The notes beneath the pieces were generated by a model, which was not told the origin of the DNA, made no database searches, and saw only the letters and a list, made by a program, of their open reading frames with translations. Shown here piece after piece: positions 53,918-58,571 of a stretch of DNA of 63,468 nt. A program made the translations under genes and the position numbers. Each line of letters starts with the position of its first letter. Within the stretch, counting starts at the first letter, position 1. Source of the stretch: Pirellulales bacterium (GTDB lineage Bacteria > Planctomycetota > Planctomycetia > Pirellulales > JADZDJ01); contig DATJYL010000179.1 in the NCBI GenBank assembly GCA_035499655.1, forward strand, positions 1-63,468, written 5' to 3'.

Positions 53918-54029
53918 GAACTAGAGGGGTTAGGGATGAGAGAAAAGAGTTCAATAAATTATTCCGCTTGCGGTTCAGCCGCGACCCGAAGGGGAGCGTG
54001 CCCCCGCATTCACACATGGAGGTTATCCG

Positions 54030-55172
54030 ATGCGTAGTTTCACTGTCGCCCGCTTTTGCCTCGCCGCCACCCTCAGCACGGTGTTCGCCACACTGGCGTC
54101 AGCTCAACAAAGTTCTCCAGCAACCGGCCCGGGCAACGCTTCCGGTGCAGCATCGGCCGATGCCAAGCCCGCGATCAGCGCGGCCGACCAAAAAATCAAA
54201 GCCGCCTACGAAAAAACCAACTCCGCCTCCACGCTGGACGATTTCAGCCAAATCATCTCGCTTTGCCAGGACGGCCTCAGCGAAGGTTCAACCGGCGAAA
54301 GCGCCGCTTATGCCCGCCAGTTGGAAGCCTGGGCCTACAACCGCCGGGGCGAAAAATACTCCGAAGGCAACAACGAAAAGCAAGCCCTCAAAGATTTTGA
54401 AGCCGCGCTGGCCCTCAACGACAAATTGTGGAAAGCCGTCCAAAATCGCGGCGTCAGTCGCGCTTACCTGGGCGACACCAAAGGGGCGCTGGCCGATTTC
54501 GACTCGGTGATTCAGCTCAATCCCAATTACGCCAACGCCTGGTTTAATCGCGGCGAGTTGAAGTACGCCCAAGGCGATGTCAACGGCGCCTTGGCAGATT
54601 ACGATCACGCCATTCAGCTCCAGCCTGGCGACGCCGGCTTTTATAACAGCCGTGGGCACGCCAACTACCGCCTGGGCAACTTCCGCGAAGCCCTGGCCGA
54701 TTACAACCGCGCTGTGCAAATCAATCCCGATGACGCGCTCGCCCTGGTCAATCGTGGCGATGCCTACCGCGAACAGGGCATTTACGGCGCCGCTGCATCC
54801 GATTATCGCGATGCCGTCCGCACCGATTCCAAACTCGGCCGCGCCTATCTCAGCACCGCCTGGCTGATGGCCACCTGCCCCGATCCGCGCTATCGCGATG
54901 CCGACAAAGCCATCGCCGCCGCACAACGGGCCATCGAGCTCGATGGCGACAAAGATTACCGCTATCTCGATACGTTGGCCGCCGCCCAAGCCAGCGCCGG
55001 AAAATTCGACGATGCCAAAACCTCAGTCCACAAGGCCCTGAACGAAGCTCCCAAGAACGAAGCGGCCCACATCCAACAGCGGCTCGATTTGTACGAAAGC
55101 GCCCGGGCATACCGCGAAGGCGCCCCCGCCGAAGCCGTCAAACCCGCCAGCGCCAACCTCCGCGCGCCGTAG
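54030..55172 (+). CDS. Secreted TPR-repeat protein
   Basis: The 380-residue product starts at ATG 54030, with GGAGG seven bases upstream. The signal peptide is FCLAATLSTVFATLASAQQS. After an Ala/Gly-rich linker there are at least six tetratricopeptide repeats, including RGEKYSEGNNEKQALKDFEA, NRGVSRAYLGDTKGALADFD, NRGELKYAQGDVNGALADYD, SRGHANYRLGNFREALADYN and NRGDAYREQGIYGAAASDYR. The region about 280-300 (YRDADKAIAAAQRAIELDGD) is the last typical unit. These domains bind proteins, here in the periplasm or outside. No enzymatic domain is attached and the partner is unknown. A repeat-rich stretch and the mobile islet follow downstream. Confidence 0.88.
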   Translation: MRSFTVARFCLAATLSTVFATLASAQQSSPATGPGNASGAASADAKPAISAADQKIKAAYEKTNSASTLDDFSQIISLCQDGLSEGSTGESAAYARQLEAWAYNRRGEKYSEGNNEKQALKDFEAALALNDKLWKAVQNRGVSRAYLGDTKGALADFDSVIQLNPNYANAWFNRGELKYAQGDVNGALADYDHAIQLQPGDAGFYNSRGHANYRLGNFREALADYNRAVQINPDDALALVNRGDAYREQGIYGAAASDYRDAVRTDSKLGRAYLSTAWLMATCPDPRYRDADKAIAAAQRAIELDGDKDYRYLDTLAAAQASAGKFDDAKTSVHKALNEAPKNEAAHIQQRLDLYESARAYREGAPAEAVKPASANLRAP

Positions 55173-55332
55173 TGCGCCGTTTAGCCGCGACGCGGAGTCC
55201 TCGGAGCGGCCGTTTAAACGGATTCCGCTGCCAGGCTTTTCAATCCGCTTGTGGTTTAGCCGAAATCACCATGGATCGCCCATCCGCTTGCGGTTTAACC
55301 GCGACGCGCTAGTAGAGCGCGCTGTGGGCATG
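55173..55332. repeat. Cluster of short dispersed repeats at the left edge of the islet
   Basis: Three or four related elements occur in 160 bp: CCGTTTAGCCGCGACGCGGA at 55178, CCGTTTAAACGG (palindrome) at 55210, CCGCTTGTGGTTTAGC at about 55245 and CCGCTTGCGGTTTAACCGCG at about 55284. They are variants of the GCTTGCGGTTTAGC family found singly elsewhere. No gene is visible. They lie immediately left of the direct repeat at 55333. Confidence 0.6.
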
Positions 55333-55377
55333 CCCGTTGCCCTCCTCACATCAGCCACCACTGGCCAATTGGCGATC
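55333..55377. repeat. Left direct repeat of the islet
   Basis: This 45-bp copy contains TCACATCAGCCACCACTGGC at 55346-55365, identical to the right copy at 57809-57828, within a longer stretch that differs by a few substitutions and two single-base length differences. The mismatches suggest that the insertion is not recent or that the two copies came from different strains. It behaves like an attachment-site or target-duplication copy, and four bases separate it from the methylase stop. Confidence 0.75.
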
Positions 55378-55380
55378 GTG

Positions 55381-55827
55381 TTAAAAAGTCAGCAAAAGAC
55401 GATCCGCAACAACCTCCGACTCGAGCGACTTTCCTTCCATTTGAAATCGCTTCAACATCGATCGACCACAACTTAGCGAAAGCTCCTGGACAAATAATCC
55501 ATCGGGTAATGGAATGTTGCACATCTGCCCACCCGACTTTTTTGTCCCGTCGATACTGAGAACAACATACACTCCCCGCGATTTGCATCGCTCGATCGCC
55601 GAGAACAGTCTGGAAAGCGAAAAAGTCTGCGCTCCATATAAAATGGTTTGACTGTGCGAATATGGCGGATCGCAATAAACCAAATCACCCTTCTTGGCCA
55701 TATTCATGATTTCTTCAAAATCGGCATGCAGAAAATTTGTACGTTGTGTCCTTTTGTGCCAGATATCGACACGCTGAGAAAAGGCCGTCGGAGATATGGG
55801 TTGATGCACACCGCAAGGCGTTGACAT
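55381..55827 (-). pseudogene. C-terminal half of a D12-class DNA adenine methylase
   Basis: From ATG 55827 the frame gives 148 residues: MSTPCGVHQPISPTAF, DFEEIMNMAKKGDLVYC, the catalytic motif IV DPPYSHSQTILYGAQTFSL (DPPY at 53-56), RGVYVVLSIDGTKKSG and CGRSMLKRFQMEGKSLESEV. These are the C-terminal features of Dam-like (D12 class) N6-adenine methylases. The N-terminal half, with the FxGxG SAM-binding motif, target-recognition start and about 120-150 residues, is missing. The upstream sequence is the end of the nuclease gene, whose TAG stop lies 11 bases before this ATG. It could be a remnant, or an interrupted gene whose N-terminal part was replaced by the nuclease. Activity is not expected. 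Confidence 0.8.
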
Positions 55828-55838
55828 AGCCCATCCCG

Positions 55839-56816
55839 CTAAAGAACTAGAATTAGTCTCAAATTTTCCAAGATTTCTGCAAATGTTCGCGGTTGATCCC
55901 AGTTGCAAATAAGTTCATACCGAATGAGGCGAATTCCCAATTCGGCTGCTCTACTGAGTACAGTCTTTGGAAACGCTTCTGCAATTACGGCTTGGCCAAC
56001 ACATTCAACTCCAAATTCACTGGTGTAACCTTGCAATTGTGACAGGTCCTCTAACTCAGCCTTAGCCAACTTCGCCTCTAAAATAAGCTTATGGGCGACT
56101 CCAATTGGGATTAAATCTTTTATCAAAATATCAACGTGACCTTCCGAAACAGCTTTCTCGCTGAGAACTTCCAAGACATCCGCTTCCAAAGTGTCAACTC
56201 CGAGCATGCCAAGCATGCGTTCTAAATAGCTTTTTTCTGCGATTTGGCGGCGGATAGCAGCTTGTAAGATCAGTTCGTTAAAGGGGCAAACTAAAGGCAC
56301 ATTCACGTCGGACTTGCGACGTGTAAAACGCGGAACAAATGCAGAATATGCCGGAATTTCAAAGGATTGTGCGGCTTCTGTTGCAACGCTTCCCATCTGC
56401 GAAACAACTTGAAGCGTTGTTTGGTCAGCCTGGAAATGAGTCTTGCGATACCCTGCCCTTAATAACAGATTCTCTGCAACATATGCAAATTCGGCTCTGA
56501 CAAGCGGCTCTGTGAAATGCCTTTCACATTGAAGATAAAGCCGAATTGGATAGTAATACGTCTTATTCGACTCCCTGAAGGTTACAGGAGGCCACGGTGC
56601 AGCCTTCTGGAACTCGATAATCGCTTCTTTCCGGATGACCTTGTAAAGGTTGAAAGCACGTGCAGCATAAAGAAACGAAATGTAATCACCTTCTCTGATA
56701 TCGACGTACGCCCAAACGCCAGTACCGCTGTTAGAAAAGCCAGCGAGGGCGTGTCTGATGCAAAGGTCTAGGTTCTGCCGATTTGAAACTGCGAGAAGAA
56801 AATATGACTGTCGCAT
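55839..56816 (-). CDS. EVE-like domain protein with C-terminal PD-(D/E)XK nuclease-like domain
   Basis: The 325-residue product starts at ATG 56816 (a GTG at 56846 is possible). Residues 1-60 (SYFLLAVSNRQNLDLCIRHA, GTGVWAYVDIREGDYISFLY) resemble EVE/PUA-like domains that recognise modified bases. A middle region is unassigned (FVPRFTRRKSDVNVPLVCPF). Residues about 205-300 fit a NucS/DUF91-like PD-(D/E)XK nuclease core: ADVLEVLSEKAVSEGHVDIL, with the Asp near 229, and HKLILEAKLAKAELEDLSQL, with the ExK at 247-249, then QGYTSEFG. This looks like a restriction or modification-dependent nuclease. It is upstream of and nearly abuts the methylase remnant. Assignment is by motif only. Confidence 0.65.
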   Translation of the reverse strand: MRQSYFLLAVSNRQNLDLCIRHALAGFSNSGTGVWAYVDIREGDYISFLYAARAFNLYKVIRKEAIIEFQKAAPWPPVTFRESNKTYYYPIRLYLQCERHFTEPLVRAEFAYVAENLLLRAGYRKTHFQADQTTLQVVSQMGSVATEAAQSFEIPAYSAFVPRFTRRKSDVNVPLVCPFNELILQAAIRRQIAEKSYLERMLGMLGVDTLEADVLEVLSEKAVSEGHVDILIKDLIPIGVAHKLILEAKLAKAELEDLSQLQGYTSEFGVECVGQAVIAEAFPKTVLSRAAELGIRLIRYELICNWDQPRTFAEILENLRLILVL

Positions 56817-56958
56817 AGTATTCGGCTGGAAGACGCATTTTTGCACTAAATGCCATATCCGATTTTGGGATATTTATCCCGTGGCATTATAAAAGGTCAT
56901 ATCGCCTCCGCCATAGCAGATTGTGCGTGCCCTATTGTCGTCAAAAGAGTTGATAGAT

Positions 56959-57207
56959 ATGTGGAAATGTCCGAAATGCGGTCGATCTCGGCTTAATGTG
57001 TACTTTCGGGAAATTATCTGCCGCACATACGTCATGATACGACCCGGCGATGAATGGGAAAACGATAATGTTGTAGAGACGGAGGCTTGTGTCCGGCTTG
57101 AATGTGCCAACTGCGGCATAGATCAATCCAAACACCGTGGGATTGTGAAGAAATACGCCAGCCACACCTCCTACGGATACATGCCAATAGACACTGCTAC
57201 AGATTAA
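56959..57207 (+). CDS. Small zinc-ribbon protein of the islet
   Basis: The 82-residue product starts at ATG 56959 (MWKCPKCGRSRLNVYFREII). Two CxxC pairs, C4-P-K-C7 and C49-A-N-C52, form a zinc ribbon; a further Cys is at 21 and 44. The middle (MIRPGDEWENDNVVETEACV) and end (RGIVKKYASHTSYGYMPIDT) are unassigned. It is transcribed divergently from the nuclease gene and toward the second nuclease-like gene, 29 bp away. It may bind DNA or act as a small partner of the downstream protein. AT-rich codon use sets it apart from the chromosome. Confidence 0.6.
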   Translation: MWKCPKCGRSRLNVYFREIICRTYVMIRPGDEWENDNVVETEACVRLECANCGIDQSKHRGIVKKYASHTSYGYMPIDTATD

Positions 57208-57236
57208 GGAATCTATTCAGAAAAGCGATCTGAAAA

Positions 57237-57785
57237 TTGCGCAGGAAACTCTGCCCCAAATGTCCATTGCCTATGAACAAACAAAAGAAAGCCAAAAAGG
57301 CTAATGCATATTTTTCCGGGATTATAAATATGCTAATTGAAAGCAACTGCGAGGGCATGCCTTGTGATTATGCTCCGGGAGAATTAACAACCATCACACG
57401 CGATGGAGCGCCTTACCGAACGCTTGCACGGCGTATCGATGGGGCATTTCCACGAACAGTGAATCCTATCGCTGTCTGGGAAATAAAAGAGTATTACTAC
57501 ACCACAACTTTTGGCAGCCGCGTTGCTGATGGCGTGTACGAGTCACTTCTCGACGGCATGGAAATCGAGGAAGCGCGTACAGAAGAACCTCACATCAAAC
57601 ATTACTTAATGATTGACGATTACTTTACGTGGTGGGAATGCGGAAGATCCTACCTGTGCCGGATCATCGACATGATGCACATGGGCTATGTCGACGAGGT
57701 TTTGTTCGGAAGAGAAGTTATCAACCGAATTCCAGTTATTGTTAAGGACTGGGTAAAAAGCGCGAAACAAATAGATAAACGTTGA
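57237..57785 (+). CDS. Putative ExK nuclease-like protein of the islet
   Basis: I do not know a named family for it. The product is 182 residues from a TTG at 57237, or 170 from ATG 57273 (MNKQKKAKKANAYFSG); the first version adds LCPKCP, a possible zinc pair. A conserved-looking core contains an Asp in ARRIDGAFPRTVNP and, 13 residues later, an E-x-K in IAVWEIKEYYYTTTFGSRVA, followed by DGVYESLLDGMEIEEARTEE. This spacing fits a PD-(D/E)XK nuclease. The C-terminal part is distinctive (HYLMIDDYFTWWECGRSYLC, RIIDMMHMGYVDEVLFGREV, INRIPVIVKDWVKSA). Its location beside methylase and EVE-nuclease genes supports a restriction role. Confidence 0.6.
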   Translation: MRRKLCPKCPLPMNKQKKAKKANAYFSGIINMLIESNCEGMPCDYAPGELTTITRDGAPYRTLARRIDGAFPRTVNPIAVWEIKEYYYTTTFGSRVADGVYESLLDGMEIEEARTEEPHIKHYLMIDDYFTWWECGRSYLCRIIDMMHMGYVDEVLFGREVINRIPVIVKDWVKSAKQIDKR

Positions 57786-57796
57786 TCGAAGCGTTA

Positions 57797-57839
57797 CCCG
57801 TCGCCTCTTCACATCAGCCACCACTGGCCGCTGGCGATC
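57797..57839. repeat. Right direct repeat of the islet (native CPBP gene end)
   Basis: This 43-bp copy overlaps the last codons and stop of the CPBP-protease gene (stop at 57809-57811). It contains TCACATCAGCCACCACTGGC at 57809-57828, identical to the left copy at 55346. Because the protease gene remains full length, this is probably the original site, and the islet entered immediately after the gene. Confidence 0.75.
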
Positions 57840-58561
57840 ACATACACGCCCAGCAGCAAATTTGTCACGGCATGGGCTAGCACGCAGTCCCAAATGCTAC
57901 GGCTGCGGATCATGAGCCACGTGACGGCGGAAAACCACACCAGCGCCGCCACGGCTTCTTGCGGATGCATCAGCATGGGAACGGCCGTGCCCGCCACTAC
58001 CGCGAGCCGATTCACATTGCCAAACGGCACTTCCCACCATTTTTCCACCATCGCGAACCGCATCAAAAATCCACGTTGAAAAAATTCCTCGATAACCGGC
58101 ACCACCACCGCCAATCCCAACAGCCGCACCGCCAAAAATCCATACGCCAGCGCCGGCTGCGCGCTCAATTCCGTCAGCGGATTGAACGCGCTCCGCTGCC
58201 CCAGCGTTTTGAACCACTCGATGCCGGTTTTTTCGGCCACTAGCGGCATCCACTGTCGTTGCCACGTGGCCAGTGCAATCCATACGGCCGCGCCGATCAC
58301 GCCGACGGCCACGCCTAACCAAGTTAACCGCCGGGTGTATTGCCGATAGCCGGGCCAGACAAACATCATCGCTGCCAGGGTGAGCAAAATCTTCGCCGTG
58401 TAGATTAGCGGATACTGGCGATATTCGATTCCCAGGTCCAACCACGATTTCGTGGCGATTGCGCCCTCGGCTGTTGGCGTCGGCTCCAGACTGCCAACCA
58501 GCATGAACACCACAAACGGCAGCAAACAAACCAGCCACGGATTTGTTCGCCAGTGATTCAT
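57809..58561 (-). CDS. CPBP-family intramembrane glutamic protease
   Basis: The product is 250 residues from ATG 58561, preceded by a G-run (GGGGGGTG) that can serve as ribosome-binding site; a GTG at 58570 is an alternative. It is a multi-spanning CAAX-protease/bacteriocin-processing (Abi) homologue: TMs include WLVCLLPFVVFMLVGSLEP, LIYTAKILLTLAAMMFVWPG and WLGVAVGVIGAAVWIALATW. The catalytic Glu pair is in VVVPVIEEFFQRGFLMRFAM near residue 165, followed by the histidine of MLMHPQEAVAALVWFSAVTW and a final HAVTNLLLGVYVI. Substrate is unknown. Its 3' end was duplicated when the adjacent islet integrated. Confidence 0.9.
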   Translation of the reverse strand: MNHWRTNPWLVCLLPFVVFMLVGSLEPTPTAEGAIATKSWLDLGIEYRQYPLIYTAKILLTLAAMMFVWPGYRQYTRRLTWLGVAVGVIGAAVWIALATWQRQWMPLVAEKTGIEWFKTLGQRSAFNPLTELSAQPALAYGFLAVRLLGLAVVVPVIEEFFQRGFLMRFAMVEKWWEVPFGNVNRLAVVAGTAVPMLMHPQEAVAALVWFSAVTWLMIRSRSIWDCVLAHAVTNLLLGVYVIASGQWWLM

Positions 58562-58571
58562 CGGAAGCACC

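Follow-up and report, generated by a model that had tools for sequence, protein, structure and literature searches.

A repeat-flanked islet in a Pirellulales genome and the probable entry of BclI-type restriction-modification genes with long target duplication

The window analyzed here, a 63,468-nt stretch of DNA from a Pirellulales bacterium, contains the 3' end of a CPBP-type protease gene twice, on either side of an islet of putative defense genes, which raises the question of how the islet and the second gene end came to be there. A repeat search of the window returned a 26-bp ungapped pair, identical at 25 of 26 positions, that extends to 45/43 bp at 87% identity when gaps are allowed (Table 1). 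A sequence-only reading of this DNA had described near-identical stretches of about 45 bp in the same orientation and, within them, the sequence TCACATCAGCCACCACTGGC, which we found exactly at the positions it gave, 55346-55365 and 57809-57828. The right copy encodes SGQWWLM followed by the stop codon and is, as that reading held, the native end of the CPBP gene. Searching the whole 4.54-Mb assembly for the 20-base repeat core with up to 3 mismatches, we found only the two sites flanking the islet, and 0 occurrences are expected in shuffled window sequence. The islet is indeed AT-rich (45-47% GC, compared with 59-60% in the flanks), and no recombinase is found among the ORFs between the repeats, in agreement with the claim that no integrase lies inside.

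Table 1. Features of the islet and its neighbors in the window, and repeat-flanked loci in other planctomycete genomes
Feature	Position	Strand	Basis	Repeat and target
TPR-repeat protein gene, left neighbor	54030..55172	+	Pfam TPR families; synteny with G001	
Spacer, 168 bp, short REP-like repeats	55173..55340	.	Sequence and repeats D6, D7; absent from G001	
Left copy of CPBP 3' end	55333..55377 (core 55341-55366)	+	Repeat alignments	
3' half of putative BclI-type D12 adenine methyltransferase gene (M)	55381..55830	-	PADLOC PDLC03290 142-292 of 292; blastx border; motifs	
Intact 335-aa nuclease gene, predicted EVE/YTH-like and NucS-like PD-(D/E)XK domains	55839..56846	-	37 homologous loci; alignment; model and fold matches	
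94-aa ORF, two CxxC pairs, zinc-ribbon-like	56923..57207	+	ORF list; Pfam and homologue searches	
3' part of putative BclI-type endonuclease gene (R)	57234..57785	+	Pfam PF24736 E 4e-79; PADLOC PDLC03423 101-278 of 285; blastx border	
Right copy, native 3' end of CPBP gene	57797..57839 (core 57804-57829)	+	Repeat alignments	
CPBP-type (Rce1-like) protease gene, end duplicated	57809..58570	-	Pfam PF02517	
Repeat pair of the window				45/43 bp; CPBP gene 3' end
Repeat pair, G360				56 bp, 84%; intergenic stretch
Repeat pair, G020				103 bp, 94%
Repeat pair, G470				72 bp, 99%; gyrB 3' end
Repeat pair, G055				52 bp, 92%
gyrB cassette loci	L191 (G430:C127), L192 (G387:C12), L193 (G363:C2), L199 (G470:C255)			

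In G001, a genome of the same genus, all flanking genes are collinear with those of the window (fumarase, TPR, CPBP, ApbE, FGE, and Gfo), and the single CPBP gene is flush with the TPR gene, the TPR stop codon being followed by 6 bases and then by the CPBP gene end (...CGCACCGTAATTTCTCTCACATCAACCACCATTG...). Because G001 joins the TPR stop to the CPBP end in this way, both the islet and the second copy of the CPBP end are extra in the window, which identifies the islet as an insertion with a duplicated CPBP 3' end at its flanks. The check proposed for an insertion, an empty site with a single repeat copy between the TPR and CPBP genes, therefore came out as predicted. The expectation that this copy adjoins the TPR side directly holds for G001 (6 bp) but not for the window, where a REP-like spacer of about 168 bp intervenes. 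The presence of this spacer means that the locus has changed more than once since the G001 state, and the spacer may reflect a change separate from the islet insertion; the G001 state, in turn, may be one from which an islet was lost through recombination between the repeats. The short repeats of the spacer are CCGCTTGYGGTTTARCCG-like, occur also near 53964, and resemble dispersed REP-type sequence. A CPBP homologue is encoded by 33 of 57 relatives. The left copy could alternatively be what remains of a second CPBP gene that has decayed, the islet having fallen between tandem paralogues, and it does match the CPBP end of another genus at 23 of 23 bases. However, the CPBP homology ends at about 45 bp, G001 has one CPBP gene in its place beside TPR, and the same pattern recurs at gyrB, DHDPS, and other genes (see below), making this origin highly improbable.

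From left to right, the islet comprises the end of M (-), the 335-aa nuclease gene (-), the 94-aa ORF (+), and the end of R (+), so that the M and R remnants lie at its outer ends, adjoining the two repeat copies. The M remnant corresponds to the last ~148 codons, with the DPPY motif kept and motif I lost (its listed open frame extends to 55908), and the R remnant to the last ~180 codons, with the DUF7687 domain kept. Homology to intact relatives stops at sharp blastx borders, 55827-55830 in M and 57201-57234 in R. Among the plasmids recovered with the endonuclease as query is pBcl1, from the strain that yielded BclI, Bacillus caldolyticus NEB414; pBcl1, pBM69, and pGA2 share one layout: a methyltransferase (-), a small HTH regulator C (+), and the endonuclease (+). 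The same M-C-R trio is found at 14 other planctomycete loci; at one of these, L130, it is broken up or damaged. The recognition sequence TGATCA (m6A, type II alpha) has been assigned to B. caldolyticus strain NEB414 (PMC5805893), and from this assignment, together with full-length PADLOC matches, we infer that the pBcl1 M/R pair is the BclI system. Judged by homology of M and R to this pair, the window insert is the remnant of a BclI-type (TGATCA in B. caldolyticus) system with the usual arrangement <-M, C->R->, its full layout visible in relatives and its outer parts in the window. Missing from the window are the first half of M including motif I, the C gene, and R residues 1 to 100-115, leaving no complete working M, C, R set. 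Thus, the earlier description of a restriction/defense islet stands insofar as R-M genes are there, which intact relatives identify as 3' parts of M and R, but both are truncated, and the intact genes are the nuclease gene and the zinc-ribbon ORF.

Several relatives of this R-M system differ in condition or surroundings. At L130 (1264-3310, G437:C317), both M and R have frame breaks and are apparently decaying. At L051 (4112-6802, G052:C41), the regulator of a divergent relative is flanked by a D12-type and an N4/N6-type methyltransferase gene, an arrangement also present on the Marinobacter plasmid pHL2708Z5 (L049). In a distant planctomycete, an intact BclI-type R-M at L050 (4692-9162, G329:C672) adjoins ApbE-FGE-Gfo, the same genes that lie to the right of the window islet, which is either coincidence or a shared hot spot; we rejected it as a sign of co-transfer, since the G329 R-M is not the closest relative of the window R-M.

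The 335-aa nuclease is likely the working defense gene of the islet now. Its structural model (pLDDT 90.9) comprises an EVE/YTH-like N-terminal domain, with best fold matches at a VIA Z of 14.5 (EVE-type 2p5d) and 12.4 (YTHDC1), and a NucS/EndoMS-like C-terminal domain that matches NucS-like 2vld (Z 11.5). Residues D239, E257, and K259 of the nuclease are invariant in the family alignment and likely catalytic. PDB sequence searches with the nuclease and with R gave no match. The family comprises 37 loci in archaea and bacteria of other phyla, 41-57% identical, and a homologue is present in none of the other planctomycete genomes in a sample of 294. Its commonest Pfam match is NucS_C (23 of 25 members), apart from which the family is apparently nameless in Pfam. 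PUA-superfamily sensors occur in modification-dependent endonucleases (PMC11037411, PMC7897488), and the fold of the predicted model likewise joins a base-sensing domain to a nuclease domain, making the protein a likely type IV enzyme that senses modified bases. A methyltransferase gene adjoins 7 of the 37 relatives, which makes modification sensing less secure and an ordinary restriction role also possible. If the nuclease reads 6mA, we conjecture that it and a functional BclI-type methyltransferase could hardly occur together, a conflict in keeping with replacement of one by the other. The 94-aa ORF has no homologue in plasmids, in viral contigs, or near nuclease homologues, and no plasmid copy of the nuclease was found. 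We accordingly discarded two ideas: that the ORF is a fixed partner of the nuclease, as it is absent near all 37 homologues, and that either gene is of viral origin, as the viral contigs hold no relatives. The repeat search of the window reported no second repeat pair of at least 14 nt around the replaced core. What is left of M and R still reads as open frames, with identities to homologues of up to 76-77%, and the replacement therefore seems to postdate the split of these M/R homologues.

The duplicated gene end is not peculiar to the window. At every BclI-type locus, we aligned the two outer flanks, 250 bp past the end of M and 250 bp past the end of R, with each other; 392 randomly chosen segments, similar in length and drawn from the same sequences, served as a control. 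Long flanking direct repeats were found at 5 of 15 planctomycete loci, scoring 48-159 bits, and none of the 392 random segments reached the 40-bit mark. The two targets not named in Table 1, at the G020 and G055 loci, are a 386-aa gene and a DHDPS-family gene. At the four gene targets, that is, all but G360, the stop codon is part of the repeat, which leaves the target gene with an end of its own. The stretches between M or R and the repeats (4-85 bp) have nothing in common, and no inner termini shared across the BclI-type inserts were found. In relatives of G020 (G044 and G353) and of G055 (G003, G354, and G038), the target gene ends only once and has no R-M beside it, though their downstream sequence is too divergent to place the joint at base level. 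Flanking long repeats are absent at the other 10 loci, possibly through decay, other routes of entry, or the chance of contig ends. A 104-bp repeat at L125 resembles paralogous gene sequence and was left out of the count. Across the order, relatives of the BclI-type R-M are patchy in distribution.

Copies of gene ends also separate other small cassettes. In G470, three gyrB 3'-end copies of 72-79 bp separate a 303-aa ORF, the R-M, and a DUF433/DUF5615 toxin-antitoxin pair; two of these copies begin at the same base, and a different contig carries a fourth gyrB end. A search for gyrB ends in 43 genomes of the same family added G430, G387, and G363. The order in G430 is gyrB, a 133-aa ORF resembling a PIN toxin but without a Pfam match, a 178-bp copy (97%), a DUF433/DUF5615 pair, and a 137-bp copy (88%); the copy nearer gyrB is the more similar, as if the cassettes had been added one by one next to the gene. 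In G387, gyrB is followed by a DUF433/DUF5615 pair and a 48-bp copy, and in G363 by about 190 bp and a 43-bp copy. The gyrB 3' end is, in sum, a recurrent cassette site in one family. Among DUF5615 loci generally, 6 of 30 have flanking repeats of at least 36 bits, compared with 1 of 228 control tests, and about three of these cases look clean (L208, L226, and L223). The 35-bp repeat of the L208 cassette (1144-1178 and 1930-1964) reads as a tRNA 3' end. The repeats at L210, L214, and L218 were discounted as clear cases, since they resemble dispersed or palindromic repeats.

Such series of copies invite an explanation by site-specific integration, in which the repeats would be attL and attR and the integrase would have been lost or would act in trans, as for SCC-type elements and genomic islands at gene 3' ends. 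At four of the five R-M loci, and in every gyrB case, the target is the 3' end of a gene, stop codon included, the cassettes are stacked in series, one repeat reads as a tRNA 3' end, and the common starting base of two G470 copies is better explained by such a process. However, the target sequences are unrelated, the G360 insertion is intergenic, the gyrB copies range from about 43 to 178 bp with differing boundaries, and the inserts have neither an integrase nor common termini; we consider this route unlikely. The earlier reading had left site-specific integration and long target duplication side by side, and because repeat lengths and targets vary, our analysis leans to the latter.

The cassette and its gene-end copies could also have formed in another strain and entered by homologous recombination in the flanking CPBP/TPR sequence, the window then recording transfer alone. 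H. pylori strains exchange R-M clusters that are flanked by direct repeats (PMC4978471), the patchy occurrence of R-M relatives within the order would suit such import, and the shared left boundary in G470 could stem from exchange. Nevertheless, a first insertion with duplication would still be needed, and among the genomes searched there is no donor with the same junction, so that we regard import as distinctly unlikely.

We conclude that, most probably, a BclI-type cassette was inserted with long target duplication and its core was later replaced by the nuclease gene and the zinc-ribbon ORF. The claim that an R-M islet was inserted with a duplicated CPBP end is borne out by the empty site in G001, the M and R remnants, and four more repeat-flanked BclI-type loci at unrelated targets. 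In the proposed course of events, a compact cassette (<-M, C->R->, about 2.1 kb) would have inserted just behind the CPBP gene, and the last ~45 bp of that gene would have been copied, presumably in the same step, leaving the gene whole and a spare end on the far side. In the simplest version, a replication fork or repair patch would have switched to the foreign cassette once it had reached or passed the gene end and, having copied it, would have returned 40-180 bp upstream. This template switch would need no recombinase, no fixed terminus, and no special enzymes, and the bias of targets toward 3' ends would be explained by selection that keeps the target gene intact. Ku-type end joining was rejected as a requirement, because most of these genomes gave no Ku (PF02735) match: Ku was found in G001, G020, G430, and G018 but not in the draft genomes G000, G470, G055, G360, G387, and G363. 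Later, the center of the window cassette (M start, C gene, and R start) would have been swapped for the nuclease gene and the 94-aa ORF, which would have ended R-M function.

A wider proposal, which we put forward as speculative and doubtful, is that the order has a general route, possibly involving a dedicated trans-acting enzyme, by which small addiction modules (R-M and toxin-antitoxin) are placed behind gene 3' ends with 40-180-bp copies and stacked at gyrB-like sites without a recombinase of the integron or SCC type. The loci further suggest that a single entry route may serve R-M and toxin-antitoxin modules, which are both self-preserving. With a set of natural insertions from a single R-M family and order, the mechanism becomes testable by strain comparison, and the gyrB stacks seem to record the order of insertion (97% versus 88% identical copies in G430). 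Moreover, the window suggests that an inserted R-M may be gutted and then reused as a slot for another nuclease.

How do these loci compare with known systems? The BclI system itself (TGATCA, type II alpha; B. caldolyticus NEB414) has M, C, and R in the same order and orientation as the relatives found here, and the window remnants align with it over their length, whereas the window lacks C, the 5' half of M (which encodes motif I), and the first third of R, and its specificity is predicted. Like YTH-McrB, EVE-HNH VcaM4I, and MspJI/AspBHI, which have PUA-superfamily sensors, the window nuclease has a predicted base-sensing EVE/YTH-like domain together with a nuclease domain; in contrast to them, this nuclease domain is predicted to be a NucS/EndoMS-like PD-(D/E)XK, and some relatives have a methyltransferase neighbor. 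The gyrB stacks of G470 and G430 resemble SCC elements and integron cassette arrays in that small cassettes follow one another at a single gene 3' end and are each bounded by a copy of it, but no Ccr or IntI recombinase was seen in the inserts, copy length varies, and the target genes are many.

The closest likeness is to R-M insertions with long target duplication. Such insertion was reportedly proposed by Nobusato et al. in 2000 for Helicobacter pylori and is said to have been treated again by Furuta et al. in 2010. According to reviews that cite these two studies, some R-M systems insert with long, variable target duplications on the order of 100 bp (PMC3874152, PMC3031569), and in the literature searched we found no established mechanism for them, nor, as far as we found, a description of the recurrence in one R-M family, the TA-cassette signature, the gyrB stacks, or the swapped core. 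The features in common are R-M genes alone, a direct repeat of variable length, a single-copy empty site in a relative, and no recombinase: the repeat measures 45/43 bp in the window and 52-103 bp at the four other loci, and the empty site is found in G001 and, less firmly, at G020 and G055. The window is a new, damaged example of this known kind of insertion. Compared with the known cases, one R-M family has here inserted repeatedly across a Planctomycetota order, mostly at gene 3' ends, TA/PIN-like cassettes show similar copies, and the window example has been gutted.
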